Source: Solobacterium sp. (GTDB lineage Bacteria > Bacillota_I > Bacilli_A > Erysipelotrichales > Erysipelotrichaceae). From it: a stretch of 64,000 nt of DNA. This document shows, in pieces, positions 5,776 to 41,752 of the stretch. The position numbers were made by a program, and so were the translations under genes. The notes beneath the pieces are model-generated. The model was given only the letters and a program-made list of their open reading frames with translations, was not told the DNA's origin and did not search any database. The DNA lies in assembly GCA_017941735.1 (NCBI GenBank), contig JAGAVW010000007.1, positions 1-64,000 of the forward strand, written 5' to 3'. Position 1 is the stretch's first letter; each line of letters opens with the position of its first letter.

Positions 5776-7293
5776 ATGAGTGAAAAAAGAGAAGTTTTAT
5801 TTGAGATGAAGAATATTGAAAAAATATTCTCTCACGTACATGCCTTAGATCATGTTAATTTCGATGTTCGTAAAGGTGAAGTTCATGCACTACTTGGTGA
5901 AAACGGAGCAGGAAAATCGACATTGATTAAGATTTTAACCGGTGTTTATAAAAAAGACGGCGGTCAAATCTTTATGGATGGTAAAGAGATTGAAATCAAC
6001 TCCCGTGAAGATGCAGCAAACGCTGGTATTGCGGTTATCTTCCAAGAACTTTCCTTGATTCCTACGCTTTCGGTATATCAAAACATTTTATTAGGGAAAG
6101 AGATTAGTAAGTTCGGATTTATTTCGGATCGCGCAGAAAAGAAACAAATTCAAGACCTAATCGACAATTATGGATTCCCAGTTAAAGCAACTGATATTGT
6201 GGAAACACTAAGTGTTGCGCAAAAACAAATGGTCGAAATTTTGAAAGCTTTAGCAACCGATGCGAAACTCATCATCATGGATGAGCCAACCGCTTCCCTT
6301 TCCTCAAGAGAATCGGAATTGCTATTCAAAATTATCAATCAATTAAGAGAAAAAGAAGTTTCCATCATCTATATTTCTCACCGTCTAGAAGAAGTCTTCA
6401 ACCTTTCTGACCGTATCACAATCTTACGTGATGGTAAGAATGCAGGTGTCATTGAGAAAGAAGACATCGTTCCTTCGGAAGTCGTAAAGATGATGATTGG
6501 TAAAGAAGTAAGTGAATCCACTGCTTCGCGTGAATTAAAAACAAGTAATGCCGAGAATGTGTTAGAAGTTAAGAATTTAACGCATCTTGGTTACTTCAAC
6601 GATGTAAGCTTTGAAGTGAAAAAAGGCGAAGTTCTTGTTCTAACTGGACTTGTTGGTTCTGGACGTACGGAAGTCGTTCGTTCTATCTATGGTGCAGATC
6701 CTTACGATAGCGGTGAAATTCTATTTGAAGGAAAACCAATTAAACCTACGGTAAGAAGAAGTGTTGCAAATGGTTTTGGTTTAATCCCAGAAGATCGTCG
6801 TACCCAAGGATTCTCTCCACTTCTTTCCGTAACAAAGAATGTCGCTTTGACAAACTATGACAAGCTTGCAAAGAGTGGCTTTGTTAAGAAAGCAGATGAA
6901 GATGAGATTGGTAAGAAGGCTGTTTCATTAACCGACTTACGCCCAGCAAATCCAAATGTAAGAGTAGGCGATCTCTCCGGTGGTAACCAACAAAAAGCCG
7001 TTTTAGGTAAATGGTTAACACGTGACTTGAAAGTCATTCTCATCGATGAACCAACCGTCGGTATCGACATTGGTGCGAAAGATGAAATTTATAACATCAT
7101 TGAAGGCTTAGCACAACAAGGCGTTGCGGTATTAATGGTTTCTTCTGATATTGCGGAAGTACTACACGTTGCACACCGTATCCTCGTTATGCGTGAAGGT
7201 CGTATCATCAAAGAATTCAATGATGGCGTCGCAACGCAAGAAGACATCTTGCTAGCAAGCTCTGGTTTTGTTGAGAATCAGGAGGTAGCTTAA
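5776..7293 (+). CDS. sugar ABC transporter ATP-binding protein, tandem NBD (RbsA type)
   Basis: 505 residues with two fused ATPase domains. The first has Walker A GENGAGKS at 41-48, a family-variant signature (LSVAQKQMVEIL near 148) and Walker B LIIMDEP. The second has a degenerate P-loop GLVGSGRTE near 291, the signature LSGGNQQKAVLGKWL and ILIDEPTVGID. One consensus and one degenerate site is normal for RbsA/MglA proteins. It powers uptake through the two flanking permeases. It starts 5 bp after permease 1 and ends 1 bp before permease 2. Confidence 0.93.
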   Translation: MSEKREVLFEMKNIEKIFSHVHALDHVNFDVRKGEVHALLGENGAGKSTLIKILTGVYKKDGGQIFMDGKEIEINSREDAANAGIAVIFQELSLIPTLSVYQNILLGKEISKFGFISDRAEKKQIQDLIDNYGFPVKATDIVETLSVAQKQMVEILKALATDAKLIIMDEPTASLSSRESELLFKIINQLREKEVSIIYISHRLEEVFNLSDRITILRDGKNAGVIEKEDIVPSEVVKMMIGKEVSESTASRELKTSNAENVLEVKNLTHLGYFNDVSFEVKKGEVLVLTGLVGSGRTEVVRSIYGADPYDSGEILFEGKPIKPTVRRSVANGFGLIPEDRRTQGFSPLLSVTKNVALTNYDKLAKSGFVKKADEDEIGKKAVSLTDLRPANPNVRVGDLSGGNQQKAVLGKWLTRDLKVILIDEPTVGIDIGAKDEIYNIIEGLAQQGVAVLMVSSDIAEVLHVAHRILVMREGRIIKEFNDGVATQEDILLASSGFVENQEVA

Positions 7294-7294
7294 T

Positions 7295-8311
7295 ATGAGT
7301 GAAATGACGAAAAAGAATCCGGTATTAAAAATCCTTTTAGGAAATAGCCGATTAATCGTTCTGTTAATTATGGTTGTGGTATTCACACTCTTAACAGGCG
7401 GAAAATTCTTCAGTTATAAGAACCTAGTCAATATCCTCTATGCCGTTTCTTTATACGGTATCATGATTACCGGTGCGAGTTTTGCGGTATTGCTTGGTGG
7501 TATTGACCGTACCGTTTCGGGTAATGCGGCTTTATCAGGCGCAATCGTAGCAATGACCATTCTAAATCGTGGTGTTGGCGGTGGGAATGTTGCCCTAGCA
7601 ATCTTCCTAGGCCTTGGAGCTGGTGCGCTGAGTGGATTGATTCACGGTTTGATTCTCTCACGCTTTAACATTCCAGCATTCCTCTTAACGCTTGCTACAA
7701 ACGAAGTCTTATACGGAATTGTGCAATATGTTACAGGAAACCAATTAATCTATATCCGTGATTGTGCACTTATGGATTATATCGGTCAAGTACGTTGGCT
7801 CGGTATTCCAATCCCTGTGTATATCATGATTGTGTGCGTTATCATCAGTTATATCGTGTTGAATCATACGGTTTATGGACGCCAAGTTTATAGTGTTGGT
7901 GGAAACCGTATATCTTCTGAATTATCTGGTGTACCTGCACGTAGAGATATCTTAATTGCATATATCGTTTCCGGTATTACAGGTGCGTTAGCTGGTTTCG
8001 TATTATCCAGTATGAACCAACAAGCTTCCTCCACACAGGCGAAGAACTACGAAAACGATGTCTTAGCGGCAATCGTTGTCGGTGGTGTCTCCATGCGTGG
8101 TGGTGCTGGTACCATTCAAGGCGCAATTCTTGGTGCATTCTTAATTGGTGTCATCGGGAATGGTATGACCTTAATTGGAATCGATGCGATTTACCACAAT
8201 ATGATTAAAGGTTTAATCATTATCTTTGCGATTTCCATCGATATGGCAAGTGTTCCTGGAACACCACTTAATAACTTCTTCCGCAGATTTAAACAGAAAA
8301 AAACTGCGTAA
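7295..8311 (+). CDS. sugar ABC transporter permease 2 (RbsC type)
   Basis: 338-residue RbsC-family membrane protein, distinct in sequence from the first permease. Family landmarks are GGNRISSELSGVPARRDI in the cytoplasmic loop and AAIVVGGVSMRGGAGTIQG, with further helices to the C-terminus. With the tandem ATPase and the lipoprotein it completes a CUT2-type importer. The ribosome site AGGAGGTAG lies within the last codons of the ATPase gene, so translation is likely coupled. Confidence 0.9.
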   Translation: MSEMTKKNPVLKILLGNSRLIVLLIMVVVFTLLTGGKFFSYKNLVNILYAVSLYGIMITGASFAVLLGGIDRTVSGNAALSGAIVAMTILNRGVGGGNVALAIFLGLGAGALSGLIHGLILSRFNIPAFLLTLATNEVLYGIVQYVTGNQLIYIRDCALMDYIGQVRWLGIPIPVYIMIVCVIISYIVLNHTVYGRQVYSVGGNRISSELSGVPARRDILIAYIVSGITGALAGFVLSSMNQQASSTQAKNYENDVLAAIVVGGVSMRGGAGTIQGAILGAFLIGVIGNGMTLIGIDAIYHNMIKGLIIIFAISIDMASVPGTPLNNFFRRFKQKKTA

Positions 8312-8331: not shown

Positions 8332-9438
8332 ATGAGCATGATTGAAGAAATCACAAGAGAAACTTGGATTAACAAGACATTCCCAGAATGGGGAACCTGG
8401 CTTGTGGAAGAAATTGAAAACAAGAAAGTTCCTAAGGGAAATGTATCGATGTGGTGGTTAGGTTGTGTTGGTATCTGGATGAAGACACCTAAGAACACAA
8501 ACATCACCATTGACTTATGGACAGGAAATGGGAAACGTACCCATGGCAATGGCAAGATGGCAGTTGGCCATCAAATGGCAAACATGGCAGGTGTGCGTAA
8601 GATGCAACCAAACTTAAGAAATGTGCCATTTGTGATTGATCCATTTGCGTTCAAGCACGTAGATGCAGTTCTTGCGACCCATTACCATCAAGACCATATG
8701 AGTCCAGAGTGGGCTGCGCACGTTGTTAATTCCAAAATGACAACGACCGACGCAAAAGGAAAGAAAATTCCAGTTCCATTTATTGGACCAAAGAAATCCG
8801 TTGAGTATTGGTTAAAATGGGGTGTTCCTGAAAAACAATGCCGTGTTGTAAAACCTGGCGATAAGATTAAATTCAAAGATTTGGAAATCATTTGTTTAGA
8901 TGCATTTGATCGTACCTGTTTAGTCACAACCGATTCCACAGGACCAGATCGTGAAGAACTTGCTGGAAAGAACCTCATCAACGATATGGATGAAAAAGCA
9001 GTCAACTACTTGATTAAGACTCCAGGTGGAAATATTTATCATAGTGGTGACTCTCACTTCTCCATCTATTTCGCAAAACATGGGAAAGACTATGATGTCG
9101 ATGTGGCATTTGGTGCCTTTGGTGAAAACCCAGTAGGTATTCAAGATAAGATGACAAGTATAGACATCTTAAGAATGGCAGAAAGTTTACGTTGTAAAGT
9201 TGTGGTGCCAATTCACCATGATGTATGGTCCAACTTCCAAGCAGATACAGAAGAAATTCGTTTATTGTATGATTTCAAGAAACCAAGAAATAACTATCAA
9301 TTCACGCCATTCTTCTGGCAAGTAGGTGGTCAATATACTTATCCACAAGATAAGGATATTATGTACTACCATCACCCACGTGGTTTTGAGGATTGTTTCG
9401 AACATCCACAAAATATTCCATTCCGTTCACTCTTATAA
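8332..9438 (+). CDS. ulaG: UlaG-like L-ascorbate-6-phosphate lactonase
   Basis: 368 residues, collinear along the whole length with E. coli UlaG: N-terminal ITRETW..TFPEWG, MWWLGCVGIW near 40, then the metallo-beta-lactamase-fold motif HYHQDH (His117, His119, Asp121, His122), YHSGDSHFS near 236, PIHHDVWSNFQAD near 291 and a C-terminal HPRGFEDCF. UlaG hydrolyses the lactone ring of L-ascorbate 6-phosphate to 3-keto-L-gulonate 6-phosphate using a divalent metal. Here it follows an ABC importer rather than a PTS, so its substrate must be phosphorylated by another enzyme, probably the FGGY kinase. A related sugar-lactone phosphate is possible. Confidence 0.85.
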   Translation: MSMIEEITRETWINKTFPEWGTWLVEEIENKKVPKGNVSMWWLGCVGIWMKTPKNTNITIDLWTGNGKRTHGNGKMAVGHQMANMAGVRKMQPNLRNVPFVIDPFAFKHVDAVLATHYHQDHMSPEWAAHVVNSKMTTTDAKGKKIPVPFIGPKKSVEYWLKWGVPEKQCRVVKPGDKIKFKDLEIICLDAFDRTCLVTTDSTGPDREELAGKNLINDMDEKAVNYLIKTPGGNIYHSGDSHFSIYFAKHGKDYDVDVAFGAFGENPVGIQDKMTSIDILRMAESLRCKVVVPIHHDVWSNFQADTEEIRLLYDFKKPRNNYQFTPFFWQVGGQYTYPQDKDIMYYHHPRGFEDCFEHPQNIPFRSLL

Positions 9439-31083: not shown

Positions 31084-32946
31084 ATGATTATCTACAACGG
31101 GACAAAATTGAGTTTTACAGAATCTGTCATTGACCAAAGAATTGCGGATATTTTAAATGAAGCCGTATATGAGAAAATGCATCGTCATACTTCCCAAAGT
31201 GAATTAGAATCTTGGAAGAATTCGATGAATTATATGCAGATGGTATTAAGTGATACAGAGATACCAGAAGATGCAGGTGTCGCAATAGAATATAACATTC
31301 CACAAACATCCAAACGTGTGGATTTCATCATTTCTGGCTTTAACCAAGCTGAAAAAGAAAATGTTGTGATTGTTGAATTAAAACAATGGACCAATTTAGA
31401 AGCAATAGCAGGCATGGATGGTTTAGTAGAAACATTTACCGGACACGCAAAACGACAAGTCGTCCATCCTTCCTATCAAGCCTGGTCTTATGCATCCCTC
31501 ATTAAGGATTACAATGATTCCGTTCAAAAAGATGCGATTACATTATCTCCTTGTGCTTATCTTCATAATTATGAAGTTAAAGAAGAAGATCCTTTATATG
31601 CCTCACAATATGAAACCTATTTGGAAGAAGCACCTGCTTTTACGAAACATGATATGCGCAAGTTACGAGAGTTTATCAAAAAGTATATTGTGATTGGGGA
31701 TAATGGACATACCATTTATAAAATTGATAATGGAAAAATTAAACCATCAAAAAGCTTACAAGATGCGATCGCAAGTATGGTCAAAGGCAACGAAGAATTC
31801 ATCATGGTGGATGATCAAAAGGTGGTATATGAGCGCATTAAAGAAGTATCGAATCAATGTAAGCGTGATGATAAAAAACGTGTAGTCATAGTTAAAGGAG
31901 GCCCTGGTACTGGTAAAACCGTTGTGGCGATTAACCTATTAGCTAAACTCACAAACGAAGGTCAATTTGTACAATATGCCTCAAAGAATAGTGCACCACG
32001 CAGTGTATATTTGAAGAAACTAAAAGGGGTCATAAAGAAGAGTAGTGTGGATAATCTCTTTAAAGGAACCGGTTCTTATATTGATGTGCCAAGAAGTGCG
32101 ATGGATACGGTACTTGTGGATGAAGCTCATCGACTCAACGCAAAATCGGGCATGTTTCAAAATCTAGGTGAGAATCAAATTAAAGAAATTATCCATGCGA
32201 GTAAGTGTTCGGTTTTCTTCATCGATGAAGAACAACGTGTTACGTTAAAAGATATTGGTAGTATCGAAGAAATCAAACACTGGGCAAACAAAGAACACGC
32301 TGAAGTAATTGAAGAAGAACTACTATCCCAATTCCGTTGTAATGGGTCAGATGGGTATCTTGCGTGGATAGATCACACATTAGAAATACGAGATACCGCA
32401 AACTTCACCATGGCGCAGATGGATTATGATATTCAGGTTTTAGATACACCAGAAGAATTACGAGATAAGATTTTCATGCGCAACAAAGAGCGCAATAAAG
32501 CGCGTCTGTTAGCAGGGTATTGTTGGGATTGGATTACAGAAGGAAAGAATAATCCTAATATTTATGATATCCAAATTGGAGATTTTAAAATGAGCTGGAA
32601 TCTAGGTAATACCTCAACATGGGCCATTGATGAAGAATCCGTCAATGAAATTGGCTGTATTCATACATGCCAAGGATTAGAGTTTGATTATGTAGGAGTC
32701 ATTATTGGCGAAGACTTAATTTATCGAGATGGGAATGTTTTGACCGATGTCACCAAACGTGCTAGTACAGACCAATCTATTAAAGGAATTAAAAAGATGA
32801 TGAAAGAGAATCCCGAGCATGCTAAAAAAGTTGCGGATGAACTCATCAAAAATACCTATCGTACACTTATGACACGGGGTATGAAGGGCTGTTATGTGTA
32901 TTGTTGTGATAAGGAGCTTTCAAATTATTTAAAGAAATGTTTATAA
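31084..32946 (+). CDS. DUF2075 nuclease-helicase fusion
   Basis: 620 residues. The N-terminal part has a PD-(D/E)xK-like signature: RVDFIISG with Asp80, then VIVELKQW with Glu98 and Lys100. The DUF2075 (COG3410) superfamily-1-like helicase follows: Walker A GGPGTGKT near 273, Walker B LVDEAHRL near 343, ELLSQFRCNGSDGYLAWID near 414 and IHTCQGLEFDYVGVIIGED near 523 (motif V-like). It would bind and probably cut or remodel nucleic acid using ATP. Such solitary nuclease-helicases are common among accessory and defence genes. No methylase or specificity partner is adjacent. Confidence 0.82.
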   Translation: MIIYNGTKLSFTESVIDQRIADILNEAVYEKMHRHTSQSELESWKNSMNYMQMVLSDTEIPEDAGVAIEYNIPQTSKRVDFIISGFNQAEKENVVIVELKQWTNLEAIAGMDGLVETFTGHAKRQVVHPSYQAWSYASLIKDYNDSVQKDAITLSPCAYLHNYEVKEEDPLYASQYETYLEEAPAFTKHDMRKLREFIKKYIVIGDNGHTIYKIDNGKIKPSKSLQDAIASMVKGNEEFIMVDDQKVVYERIKEVSNQCKRDDKKRVVIVKGGPGTGKTVVAINLLAKLTNEGQFVQYASKNSAPRSVYLKKLKGVIKKSSVDNLFKGTGSYIDVPRSAMDTVLVDEAHRLNAKSGMFQNLGENQIKEIIHASKCSVFFIDEEQRVTLKDIGSIEEIKHWANKEHAEVIEEELLSQFRCNGSDGYLAWIDHTLEIRDTANFTMAQMDYDIQVLDTPEELRDKIFMRNKERNKARLLAGYCWDWITEGKNNPNIYDIQIGDFKMSWNLGNTSTWAIDEESVNEIGCIHTCQGLEFDYVGVIIGEDLIYRDGNVLTDVTKRASTDQSIKGIKKMMKENPEHAKKVADELIKNTYRTLMTRGMKGCYVYCCDKELSNYLKKCL

Positions 32947-38464: not shown

Positions 38465-38487
38465 AAAGGCGTTTTGAAACGCCTTTA
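38465..38487. terminator. bidirectional terminator
   Basis: AAAGGCGTT, loop ttga, AACGCCTTT, between the ABC ATPase gene and the convergent CARF-protein gene. Confidence 0.85.
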
Positions 38488-39666
38488 TTCTTTTCCTTTA
38501 TCAAGAGAACGTTTGGAAGCTGCCTTAAGTGCTTCCTTGAGTTCTCCTTTTTTGAGAATATCAATATCAATGACATGAATGTTTAATTCAATAGCGCGCC
38601 GTTTCATCATGGCGCCTCCTTTTGAAGTTGTAACAATGGCTGAGTGCGCCATTAAGCCACCAAAACGATTACGTAAAACTGCAAGTTCATTGAGTGCTTC
38701 GGTTTTTACGCTGTTGGTTTTACAGCTAATAAAGAATGGGGAAACTTCACGACAAGCAAGCACATCAATTTCATTGGTCACATTGCTTTGTTTACCATCA
38801 CCTTCCCAATCAACTACAGCCGAGCAAACAACATCATCATAGAAACCAATATCAAGACAAGCTTTATAAACATAGAGCTCTAAGACACTGCCAATATCAC
38901 GTAACCAAAAACGTATTTCATGGTCATGGAATTCAAAAGAGATTTCCTCATTTCCTAGATGTAAGCGATGAATAAGTCCAATTTGTTGGAAGGCTTCAAG
39001 TAATTCATCGTTAGGACTTACTTTTCCGGTATCCGTACGGACCGTGCGTTTGCCTTGGGCATACATGGATTGATTGGAATCTAGAGATATGTTTTGAATA
39101 TAGGTAATGGTACGAAGCCAGGATTTTTTATGTGCTAAATAAACATTGAAGAAGGGATCAATATAATCTATGTGATTCTCTAATACATTTTGATCAAAAC
39201 GTCCTCGACGCATTGCGCCACCTGCCATACGTAAGAAAGATTCGACATTGAAGTGCACATTGCATTCCATTTCATCCGCAAATTGTGCATTCTGGATAGA
39301 AAAATATTTATTCTTACGACGACTATAGGTCATAACCGAAACGGGTAAATCTTGGCTTAATAAACCTGTCGCAAATAGGGCAGCATCCGTGCCACCGGTA
39401 ATATCGATTGTGAGATCGTCATACATATTGGCAAGCTCAACAAGCTTCTCATAGACATCGTTCGTATTATACATATCTACGGTTTCAAAAGTATAAGGCG
39501 TATAAATTCCGCGAAAACGAAAATAGTCTTGGAGCTTTCGTTCATAGGATTCTAAGTTTTCAAGCTCATCTGGCACAAGTAAAATGGTTCGCTCAGGACG
39601 AAACATTTCGGTGCTCAAAACATTTTCTAATGGTCTTTCATCGTAAAGCTCAATGAGTGTTTTCAT
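38485..39666 (-). CDS. orphan CARF-domain nuclease-like protein (DUF1887, Card1/Can2-like)
   Basis: 393 residues from the ATG at 39666 (a TTG two codons earlier is possible). The N-terminal Rossmann-like domain carries the CARF hallmark DITGGTDAALFATG (about 87-100), which contacts cyclic oligoadenylate in known members. A winged-helix-like middle leads to a PD-(D/E)xK-like end: Glu263 in VLELYVYKA, Asp301 in NEIDVLA and ISCKTN with Lys316. The usual ExK Glu is Ser here. Card1/Can2 are cA4-activated nucleases of type III CRISPR systems, but no cas gene or array lies in this window. Function outside CRISPR is therefore open. Confidence 0.8.
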   Translation of the reverse strand: MKTLIELYDERPLENVLSTEMFRPERTILLVPDELENLESYERKLQDYFRFRGIYTPYTFETVDMYNTNDVYEKLVELANMYDDLTIDITGGTDAALFATGLLSQDLPVSVMTYSRRKNKYFSIQNAQFADEMECNVHFNVESFLRMAGGAMRRGRFDQNVLENHIDYIDPFFNVYLAHKKSWLRTITYIQNISLDSNQSMYAQGKRTVRTDTGKVSPNDELLEAFQQIGLIHRLHLGNEEISFEFHDHEIRFWLRDIGSVLELYVYKACLDIGFYDDVVCSAVVDWEGDGKQSNVTNEIDVLACREVSPFFISCKTNSVKTEALNELAVLRNRFGGLMAHSAIVTTSKGGAMMKRRAIELNIHVIDIDILKKGELKEALKAASKRSLDKGKE

Positions 39667-39702
39667 AACCAAATCAATTATAACGAAAAAAAATCATATT
39701 TT

Positions 39703-39730
39703 TGCAACAATTCTCTACTTTTGCGTGTTT
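39703..39730 (+). promoter_or_regulatory. possible ECF-type promoter of the sigma-factor operon
   Basis: TGCAACA (39703-39709) and GCGTGTTT (39723-39730) carry the AAC and CGT cores often seen in ECF -35 and -10 elements. No good vegetative promoter is seen ahead of the sigma gene. Autoregulation is inferred. Confidence 0.25.
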
Positions 39731-39750
39731 CAATAGTAGAAGAGGGAAAG

Positions 39751-40239
39751 ATGGCATTATCAATCGTTGAAGCAAAACTCAAACGCATCTTAGATATCTA
39801 TGGAACGGGGTTATATCGTTTTGCCTATTCCTATCTTCATAATGACTTAGATGCCCAAGAAATCGTCCAAGATACCTTGTTGCAATTGCTGAAATATAAA
39901 CCAACTTTTGCGGATGAGGAAAAGGAAAAAGCTTGGCTATTTAAAACAGCCGCAAATCTTTCACGCAATAAATTACGTTACAACAAAGTACGAGAAACCG
40001 ATCCTCTAGAAGAGATTTTAGCCATTCGTGAAGAAAAAGATTTGAGCTTTGTATGGGAGGCTGTGAAGCAATTAGATGCAACAGGACGGGAAGTGATTCA
40101 CCTTTTCTATGAAGAAGGCTATACCACGAAAGAAATAGGTGAAATTCTCAATCGCAAAGAGGCAACAATCCGCTCAAGCTTAGCGCGGGCTAGAGAAAAA
40201 TTAAAAACGATATTGAAGGAGGCGTATGACTTTGAATAA
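39751..40239 (+). CDS. ECF RNA polymerase sigma factor
   Basis: 162 residues from the ATG at 39751 (AGAGGGAAAG upstream). Region 2 is LYRFAYSYLHNDLDAQEIVQDTLLQLLKY (about 16-45) and region 4 is VIHLFYEEGYTTKEIGEILNRKEATIRSSLARAREKL (about 115-152). No region 3 or sigma-1 domain, as expected for ECF (group 4) factors. It overlaps by 14 bases the gene of a membrane protein that probably acts as its anti-sigma, and a DUF4349 lipoprotein follows. Confidence 0.9.
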   Translation: MALSIVEAKLKRILDIYGTGLYRFAYSYLHNDLDAQEIVQDTLLQLLKYKPTFADEEKEKAWLFKTAANLSRNKLRYNKVRETDPLEEILAIREEKDLSFVWEAVKQLDATGREVIHLFYEEGYTTKEIGEILNRKEATIRSSLARAREKLKTILKEAYDFE

Positions 40240-40777
40240 GAACTATAACAAAATCATGGAAGAAGTACGTCTCAGTGAGGCACAAAAAGACGACATTCTT
40301 TCTCATGTACTTGCCAAACAAGAAAAACCATGTGGCTTTGTATGGTGGAAGGCATTAGGTGCTATTGCGACAGTGATAGTGATTAGTTTGTTATTAACAA
40401 ATGGAATACCTTTTGGTGCCCATTCGGGTGCTGCATCAGGTGTTCCCGCAGAATCGGCAGCAGCAACTGTAGAAGAGTCTGAAGCTGCACCAGAAGCTAA
40501 TGGAGAATCGATAGCAACCGTAGAAGAGGTGACAATGGATCAAGGCATTGTGACAAGTGGAGAAGCATTACCTTATCAACATGAAATTCTTCCAATAGAA
40601 TATGAGATTCAAGAAGTGGATCATGTTGAAACAATTAATGGGGTAGAAGTAATGATTATTGTAAAAGGGCAAGAAGCAATATGGGTACAAGATGCTAGAA
40701 CTCATCATTTAATAACACAAGAACCCATGGAAGAAGAAGCATTTATCGAATTAATCAAATCATTGATGAATCAATAG
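40226..40777 (+). CDS. single-pass membrane protein, probable anti-sigma factor
   Basis: 183 residues with a cytoplasmic N-terminus of about 40, one helix (ALGAIATVIVISLLLTNG) and an extracellular part beginning with an Ala/Glu-rich linker. The short cytoplasmic stretch MEEVRLSEAQKDDILSHVLAK could hold the sigma factor. It overlaps the sigma gene and has a strong AAGGAGG site. No classic zinc-binding HxxxCxxC anti-sigma motif is seen, so the assignment rests on position and topology. Confidence 0.65.
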   Translation: MTLNKNYNKIMEEVRLSEAQKDDILSHVLAKQEKPCGFVWWKALGAIATVIVISLLLTNGIPFGAHSGAASGVPAESAAATVEESEAAPEANGESIATVEEVTMDQGIVTSGEALPYQHEILPIEYEIQEVDHVETINGVEVMIIVKGQEAIWVQDARTHHLITQEPMEEEAFIELIKSLMNQ

Positions 40778-40792
40778 ATAGGGAGGTATCAC

Positions 40793-41752
40793 ATGAACTA
40801 CAAAGATTTTTTTAGAAAATTATTTACGATTGGCGCGTGTATTACCTTATTTGGATGTGCCGCAAGTGGGGTATCTTCTACCGCAACTGGCGCTTATTAT
40901 GAAAACAGTGCTGCAGCAGAAGCAGTGACGAGTGAAGATTATGGATTTAAAGAAGATTCTTTTTCTGTAGCAGAAGAAGAATCTACAATTGGAAACCAAG
41001 AAAAACTGGTCTATCGTGGGAGTTTATCGGTTGAAACTTTACAGTATGAAGATTCTTTAAAAACGTTGCGTGAGCAAATTGAAAAGTACCATGGCATTGT
41101 GGAATACGAAGAAGAATACAACAATGAACACAATTGGTACTATAGTGACTATCAAAAAACTAGAGGAACAAGAAATCTATCTATGACGGTGCGTATTCCT
41201 ACTGAATCCTTTCAAGCATTCATGAATGCAGGAGATGGCATGGGAAAGGTATTAAGCCGGTCTACCAATGTTGAAAATATTACACGGCGTTATTCAACTA
41301 CTGCTACGGAAATTGAATCGCTCGAAATCCAACAAAAACGGTTATTAGAACTATTAGAGAATGCGAATACGATTGAAGAAATGTTGGCGATTGAAAGCCG
41401 GCTTTCGGAAGTGGAAAGTAGCTTACGTATTCATAAGAATGACCTCAATAGTATGGATACAGATATCGCTTATTCAACAATTCATATCACATTATCAGAA
41501 GTAATGACTTATACCCCACAACAAGAGGGACTTGTGATTAGCCGTTTCTTTGAAAGAGCATGGGAAACCATACAATGGACAGGCACTTTCTTCATTTACC
41601 TCTTACAACAAATCATCTTATGGGCAATTCGTCTAATCCCAATTGTTGTGCTTGTAGCATTGGGTGTTTGGTTGTATCGTTTCTATCGCAAGAAACATCC
41701 AAAAGATGCTAACCAAGAAAAGAAGAGCATCTTTTCGAAGAAGAAAGAATAG
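40793..41752 (+). CDS. DUF4349-domain lipoprotein with C-terminal membrane helix
   Basis: 319 residues. Lipoprotein signal ending LFGCAAS (Cys22). The DUF4349 region spans about 70-285 (KLVYRGSLSVETLQYEDSL; MTVRIPTESFQAFMNA; YSTTATEIESLEIQQKRLLELLENA), ending in a membrane helix (LIPIVVLVALGVWLYRFY) and a basic tail. DUF4349 proteins are common companions of ECF/anti-sigma modules but their action is not known. Ribosome site AGGGAGG. Confidence 0.85.
   Translation: MNYKDFFRKLFTIGACITLFGCAASGVSSTATGAYYENSAAAEAVTSEDYGFKEDSFSVAEEESTIGNQEKLVYRGSLSVETLQYEDSLKTLREQIEKYHGIVEYEEEYNNEHNWYYSDYQKTRGTRNLSMTVRIPTESFQAFMNAGDGMGKVLSRSTNVENITRRYSTTATEIESLEIQQKRLLELLENANTIEEMLAIESRLSEVESSLRIHKNDLNSMDTDIAYSTIHITLSEVMTYTPQQEGLVISRFFERAWETIQWTGTFFIYLLQQIILWAIRLIPIVVLVALGVWLYRFYRKKHPKDANQEKKSIFSKKKE

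Follow-up and report, generated by a model that had tools for sequence, protein, structure and literature searches.

The window, i.e., the whole 64,000-nucleotide stretch of DNA analysed here, carries on its minus strand a gene for a protein, designated P0001, in which an N-terminal CARF domain precedes a predicted C-terminal nuclease. The open reading frame is intact; a TTG at 39672 is an alternative start that would give a protein of 395 residues (38485-39672, minus strand). The features of the locus are as follows.

38485-39666, minus strand: CARF-PD-(D/E)xK nuclease gene (P0001), 393 aa from the probable ATG at 39666
39286-39666, minus strand: CARF (Rossmann-like) sensor domain, approximately aa 1-127
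39364-39405, minus strand: CARF strand-4 motif D88-I-T-G-G-T-D94 with the next helix, DITGGTDAALFATG, aa 88-101
38503-38919, minus strand: PD-(D/E)xK nuclease domain, approximately aa 250-388, placed by PF09002 and fold
38878-38880, minus strand: Glu263, acid on a helix (GSVLE), the same in all 81 orthologues
38764-38772, minus strand: E299-I-D301, acids of motif II, which correspond to Can2 E276/D278 (PMC7969007)
38719-38727, minus strand: S314-C315-K316, S-x-K where E-x-K is expected, invariant in 81 of 81 orthologues
38686-38688, minus strand: Glu327 (K+11), candidate for a catalytic Glu that has moved, the same in all 81 orthologues
38485-38487, minus strand: stop codon of P0001
38465-38486, no strand assigned: terminator-like hairpin, by consensus match alone, at the 20-bp gap between P0001 and a convergent ABC-ATPase gene

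P0001 is a single chromosomal gene amid metabolic and other core genes. A TATAAT hexamer lies about 12 bases 5' of its ATG on the minus strand (window 39667-39720) and is absent from the promoter-scan output; its position suggests that the leader, if this is the promoter, may be very short. Divergent to P0001 is an ECF-type sigma factor gene, with two more genes after it (window 39721-41752), an arrangement that is not kept beside orthologues. At 31084-32946 the window also encodes a Schlafen group-3 helicase protein, which PADLOC matches weakly to AbiO.

Profiles and fold show that P0001 joins a CARF domain to a PD-(D/E)xK nuclease and belongs to the Can2/Card1/VC1899 (PF09002) family. The Pfam model PF09002 (Card1-like endonuclease) matches aa 259-383 above its cut-off (E 1.4e-10), and the PADLOC model CARF4--CARF_PDDEXK matches aa 1-373 (E 3.8e-44). 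NCBIfam gave no name for P0001, and a sequence search of the PDB with a single query sequence returned nothing relevant; a profile search of the PDB (A2) picked up VC1899, Can2, and 8bao. The AlphaFold2 model, built from 79 aligned sequences, has a pLDDT of 93.5 and a pTM of 0.90. Foldseek ranks VC1899 first (1xmx; E 6.5e-23), ahead of Can2, Cdn1, and Card1, and VIA-align superimposes the model on 1xmx with a Z of 31.8 (359 residues, 3.3 A rmsd), on Can2 (7bdv) with a Z of 28.9, and on Card1 (6xl1) with a Z of 26.4. The match to VC1899, Can2, and Card1 is full length, so that P0001 shares both the domain order of Can2 and Card1 and the overall fold that, together with the profile, characterises the broader PF09002/VC1899 family. 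CARF-only structures, namely Csm6, Csa3, Cam1, and ring nucleases, align with model residues 1-126/128. A reading of this DNA made from its sequence alone had proposed a Card1/Can2-type protein with a CARF motif and a PD-(D/E)xK-like end. The family identity is confirmed by profiles and by the structure prediction that this reading had called for; the motif lies within the CARF domain, and the nuclease end coincides with the PF09002 match and with E299-x-D301 ... S314-C315-K316.

The same reading had noted that serine replaces the usual glutamate of ExK. Serine does occupy that place; it is the rule in the family rather than a peculiarity or a doubtful residue. E263, N298, E299, D301, S314, C315, K316, and E327 are identical in all 81 orthologues, and the E-x-K half-motif of Can2 and Card1 does not occur in the P0001 clade, where S-C-K is accompanied by Glu at K+11. 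Every one of the 133 S-x-K proteins examined has an acid in the helix that follows, at K+11 in 121 and at K+8 in 12, and all of those 12 have Lys at +11; it should be noted that this covariation is phylogenetically clustered and represents fewer independent events than 133. By contrast, none of the five E-C-K relatives has an acid at aligned K+11 or K+8 (three have one at neighbouring K+7). VC1899 and Can2 are both E-C-K in the profile alignment, and VC1899 lacks an acid at the aligned helix positions. Replacement of the ExK carboxylate with an acid kept on the next helix is the layout of the PD-XXK-E restriction enzymes, in which the carboxylate comes from elsewhere in the sequence but holds its spatial position (PMC551604). 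The presence of the helix acid throughout the S-x-K proteins, and its absence at K+8 and K+11 from the E-C-K relatives, suggests that the catalytic Glu of P0001 may now be Glu327, on the helix that follows S-C-K, a relocation of the kind seen in Cfr10I and NgoMIV. The spacing differs, being K+11 in P0001 and about K+14 in Cfr10I-type enzymes. Ser for Glu is a conserved family feature with a putative compensating acid and not decay. Annotators should therefore not label such nucleases dead for want of the ExK Glu.

The CARF motif is nearly invariant among the 81 orthologues, and the pocket positions D9, D88, G91-D94, and T113-S115 are among the most conserved of the protein. The cA4 contacts that Can2 has in common with Can1 are S19, T42, K99, and Y118 (PMC7969007). 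The first three of these are replaced in P0001: S19, T42, and K99 correspond in the profile alignment to D9, P32, and D94. The counterpart of Y118 is, with some uncertainty, T113 or Y114. By the argument already made for VC1899, the predicted placement of D9 and D94 argues against Can2-like cA4 binding. Other ligands have been suggested for CARF families without K/R after strand 4, RtcR among them (PMC4012209); RtcR itself senses RNA termini that carry a 2',3'-cyclic phosphate (PMC9879122).

Cas10-type genes went undetected in the host and in almost every genome that bears an orthologue. The host assembly (1.95 Mb, 67 contigs, 94.4% complete) lacks cas10, as the Csm1 model matches just an HD domain in a 525-aa frame, and genome searches of it found no Cmr2, Cmr4, cas1, mCpol, or SMODS nucleotidyltransferase. 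Arrays were sought in the 30-48 kb part of the window, where no CRISPR-like direct-repeat array is present; the whole window has zero Rfam matches. The sequence-only reading had seen neither cas10 nor an array, and this holds for the host genome as regards cas10 and for 30-48 kb of the window as regards the array. The survey was then widened to 54 genomes (50 orthologue-bearing Clostridia, the host, and three congeners), mostly incomplete MAGs in which modelled cyclases were sought. Csm1 scored above its cut-off in none of the 50 Clostridia with close orthologues and in none of the three congeners; Cmr2 and mCpol were each found in 0 of 54. SMODS was confined to G436 and Cmr4 to G025. Many genomes gave weak Csm1 matches that take in just the HD domain of a frame some 520 aa long, and these were left out of the cas10 count. 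The Cmr2 model has the sensitivity needed, since the short Cmr2 of locus L218, described below, scores 120.5 bits. Type III signature genes were thus undetected in 52 of the 53 other orthologue-bearing genomes. The exception is G025, in which a 3.5-kb contig, a type III-A fragment, begins with a cas10 C-terminus and also has csm-like genes. The search for cas10 and other cyclases that had been proposed from the sequence is accordingly negative for the host and, save for the SMODS match and the G025 fragment, for the others.

The type III linkage that typifies Can2 and Card1 was found neither in the window nor in the host or the orthologue-bearing genomes; it was seen solely in the more distant relative at locus L218. 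In L218 (G729, from the order of G408), an S-C-K homologue at 6998-8227 stands directly after a cmr operon and is followed by 12 CRISPR repeats at 8591-9380. Cmr2 (TIGR02577, GGDD motif), Cmr3, Cmr4, and Cmr6 match NCBIfam models, Cmr3 under its cut-off; cmr1 and cmr5 are assigned by position and by likeness to a second operon in G601. Among some 190 loci searched with cas queries, no other homologue is flanked by such genes (L173 denotes the same site as L218, and L219 is the G601 cmr operon, fetched separately). In G601 the homologue and the cmr operon are on different contigs. The L218 protein falls in a different tree clade from P0001 and has, like P0001, Asp at the Can2 Ser19 and Lys99 positions; these two changes therefore do not exclude a cyclic oligoadenylate ligand. 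Moreover, this type III-B operon is cyclase-positive and includes an S-C-K nuclease, so that working for Cas10 is within the reach of the family taken as a whole. Linkage to a type III cas locus, which the sequence-only reading would have taken, if found in close relatives, as evidence against a CRISPR-free role, exists in a more distant S-C-K protein and not in P0001's clade. With its short GGDD Cmr2, the compact type III-B locus at L218:856-9380 would be a natural test bed for control of S-x-K nucleases by cyclic oligoadenylates (cOA). Of 295 genomes of G408's order, 37 have homologues and six have Csm1, with no overlap (0.75 genomes expected; not significant). The description of P0001 as an orphan is right for its clade, which is away from CRISPR, and is not new for PF09002, in which VC1899 (PMC7969007) and members of Ter/type VII-like clusters (PMC4012209) are already on record without CRISPR linkage.

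Several other architectures with CARF nucleases were met. A 1412-aa protein (L204:4015-8253, G493) combines a protein kinase domain, CARF, and an S-C-K Card1-like nuclease. Frames of 1300-1500 aa beside PP2C-phosphatase-like genes (L205, L206, L207, L208) carry a Card1-like nuclease that is E-C-K by motif, with a protein kinase in L205 and L207. On Caballeronia plasmid pSBC2-5 (L235:874-7969), an operon encodes an FtsK-like protein, a DUF1887 CARF protein, VWA, PP2C, and a Ser/Thr kinase, and is probably an example of the Ter/type VII clusters of PMC4012209. Upstream of some CARF nucleases of the other clade, in L209, L215, and L217, a small Cys-containing protein (about 83-104 aa) is encoded; L209 and L217 also have a 273-304-aa protein with no family assigned upstream, and downstream of the nuclease they have an AAA ATPase gene.

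Species genomes were scanned for relatives of P0001. There were 194, and the best 80, which are 44-51% identical to it, belong for the most part to Clostridia of the rumen and gut. The 81 orthologues are about 44-51% identical to P0001. Values of dN/dS of about 0.03-0.2 between close orthologue pairs mark the gene as functional and under purifying selection; the nuclease itself is a predicted one. The gene type is spread across Oscillospiraceae, Christensenellaceae, Lachnospiraceae, and Erysipelotrichaceae, and in the tree P0001 lies in a 22-row clade (100/100) together with Clostridia orthologues. Within the window's own genus, about half of the 48 genomes have a homologue of one lineage or another; the lineage of P0001 occurs in only four (G000, G025, G031, G043), which points to horizontal spread. 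A phage-borne origin was rejected: viral contigs and phages contained zero relatives, and plasmid records gave a single weak match. The neighbours of orthologues are unrelated core or metabolic genes that vary between genomes, and the comparison found no conserved operon partner. A defence-island setting was likewise rejected, as the 105 immediate neighbours matched just nine PADLOC defence models, with one member each. In several related Clostridia a convergent metallo-beta-lactamase-fold gene recurs beside the orthologue on the opposite strand.

We propose that P0001 is a ligand-gated nuclease that acts independently of Cas10, has an active site completed by Glu327, and is triggered by something other than the product of a resident Cas10 (probability roughly 0.55). 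The CARF sensor would gate the C-terminal nuclease. The protein is presumably a homodimer, whose CARF interface would bind a small nucleotide-like ligand, upon which the nuclease cleft would open as in Can2. The nuclease would act through a 'PD-SxK-E' site, with Glu327 providing the carboxylate that E-x-K enzymes hold in the strand. The ligand would not come from a resident Cas10; the analogy of RtcR makes a nucleotide or oligoribonucleotide arising from stress or infection the more likely one. More tentatively, and at somewhat unfavourable odds in our estimation, the proteins may form a widespread gut-bacterial CARF-nuclease clade apart from CRISPR, with a PD-SxK-E site and a ligand from no known cyclase (e.g., damaged or cleaved RNA ends).

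The sequence-only reading had left a choice between a response to cyclic nucleotides made elsewhere and a non-CRISPR signalling effector. The latter remains the better reading, the searches for Cas10-type and two other cyclase families having been nearly all negative. The former would make P0001 a cOA effector for type III systems that are gained and lost horizontally, or for an unmodelled cyclase, with a gene that outlives any CRISPR locus. Its case lies in the L218 relative, set between cmr1-6 with a GGDD Cmr2 and a CRISPR array and bearing the two Asp of P0001, in the separate cmr operon of G601, and in the type III-A fragment that G025, a close orthologue's genome, holds on another contig. 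However, the assembly of that genome (4.0 Mb in 370 contigs) is 7% contaminated, and the absence of Csm1 (0/50) and Cmr2 (0/54), the restriction of Cmr4 to G025, and the lack of overlap, albeit not significant, between homologue and Csm1 genomes in G408's order speak against such a role, which we regard as unlikely.

Less probable still is a housekeeping nuclease of nucleic-acid processing or repair, in which the CARF-like fold would serve dimerisation and not ligand sensing. A single chromosomal gene among core and metabolic genes, free of defence-gene neighbours and without phage relatives or more than one weak plasmid match, would suit it; yet the strong conservation of the pocket positions speaks for a ligand, and patchy presence (4/48 genus genomes) is ill-suited to a core role. 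That P0001 is a CRISPR effector that has degenerated and lost its system, as suggested for VC1899, is brought to mind by its nearest fold match, an orphan whose weak RNase is unregulated by cA4 (PMC7969007), and by its changed cA4-contact positions. A relic, however, would not be kept as an intact gene across four families with invariant catalytic residues, a nearly invariant CARF motif, and dN/dS of 0.03-0.2; on conservation and dN/dS this reading was rejected as very improbable.

CARF domains are read near-automatically as sensors of Cas10-made cyclic oligoadenylates. The P0001 clade of rumen and gut Clostridia and some Erysipelotrichaceae, with sensor and nuclease intact and Cas10 undetectable, offers a clean system for orphan CARF sensing. 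If the more tentative reading given above is true, signals would reach a nuclease by a new route without CRISPR. What the analysis adds is the S-x-K/helix-acid rule, for which a narrow literature search found no reporting paper, and the description of a conserved clade free of CRISPR and of the hosts in which it occurs.

Among known systems, VC1899 of Vibrio cholerae (1XMX), the founding DUF1887/PF09002 protein, is like P0001 in full-length CARF + PD-(D/E)xK fold, in being an orphan without type III CRISPR, and in having D9 at the Can2 Ser19 position. The two are only 16% identical; VC1899 has E-C-K without an aligned helix acid, whereas P0001 has S-C-K and Glu327, and the Can2 Lys99 position is Arg96 in VC1899 and Asp94 in P0001. 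VC1899 has weak RNase activity on which cA4 is without effect (PMC7969007) and looks degenerate in vitro, whereas the P0001 clade is under strong purifying selection. Can2 and Card1 share with P0001 the domain order, the fold, the E-x-D and x-K core, and the PF09002 and PADLOC CARF4 matches; they differ from its clade in type III linkage and in having E-x-K in place of S-x-K with a helix Glu. Cfr10I and NgoMIV have PD-...-x-K with the carboxylate away from the ExK strand (PMC551604), as P0001 appears to have; they are unrelated restriction enzymes, and the likeness is one of active-site layout alone, deduced for P0001 from its sequence. Finally, RtcR, whose family is mostly without K/R after strand 4 (PMC4012209), is like P0001 a CRISPR-independent CARF protein; RtcR is a transcription activator, whereas P0001 is a predicted nuclease.
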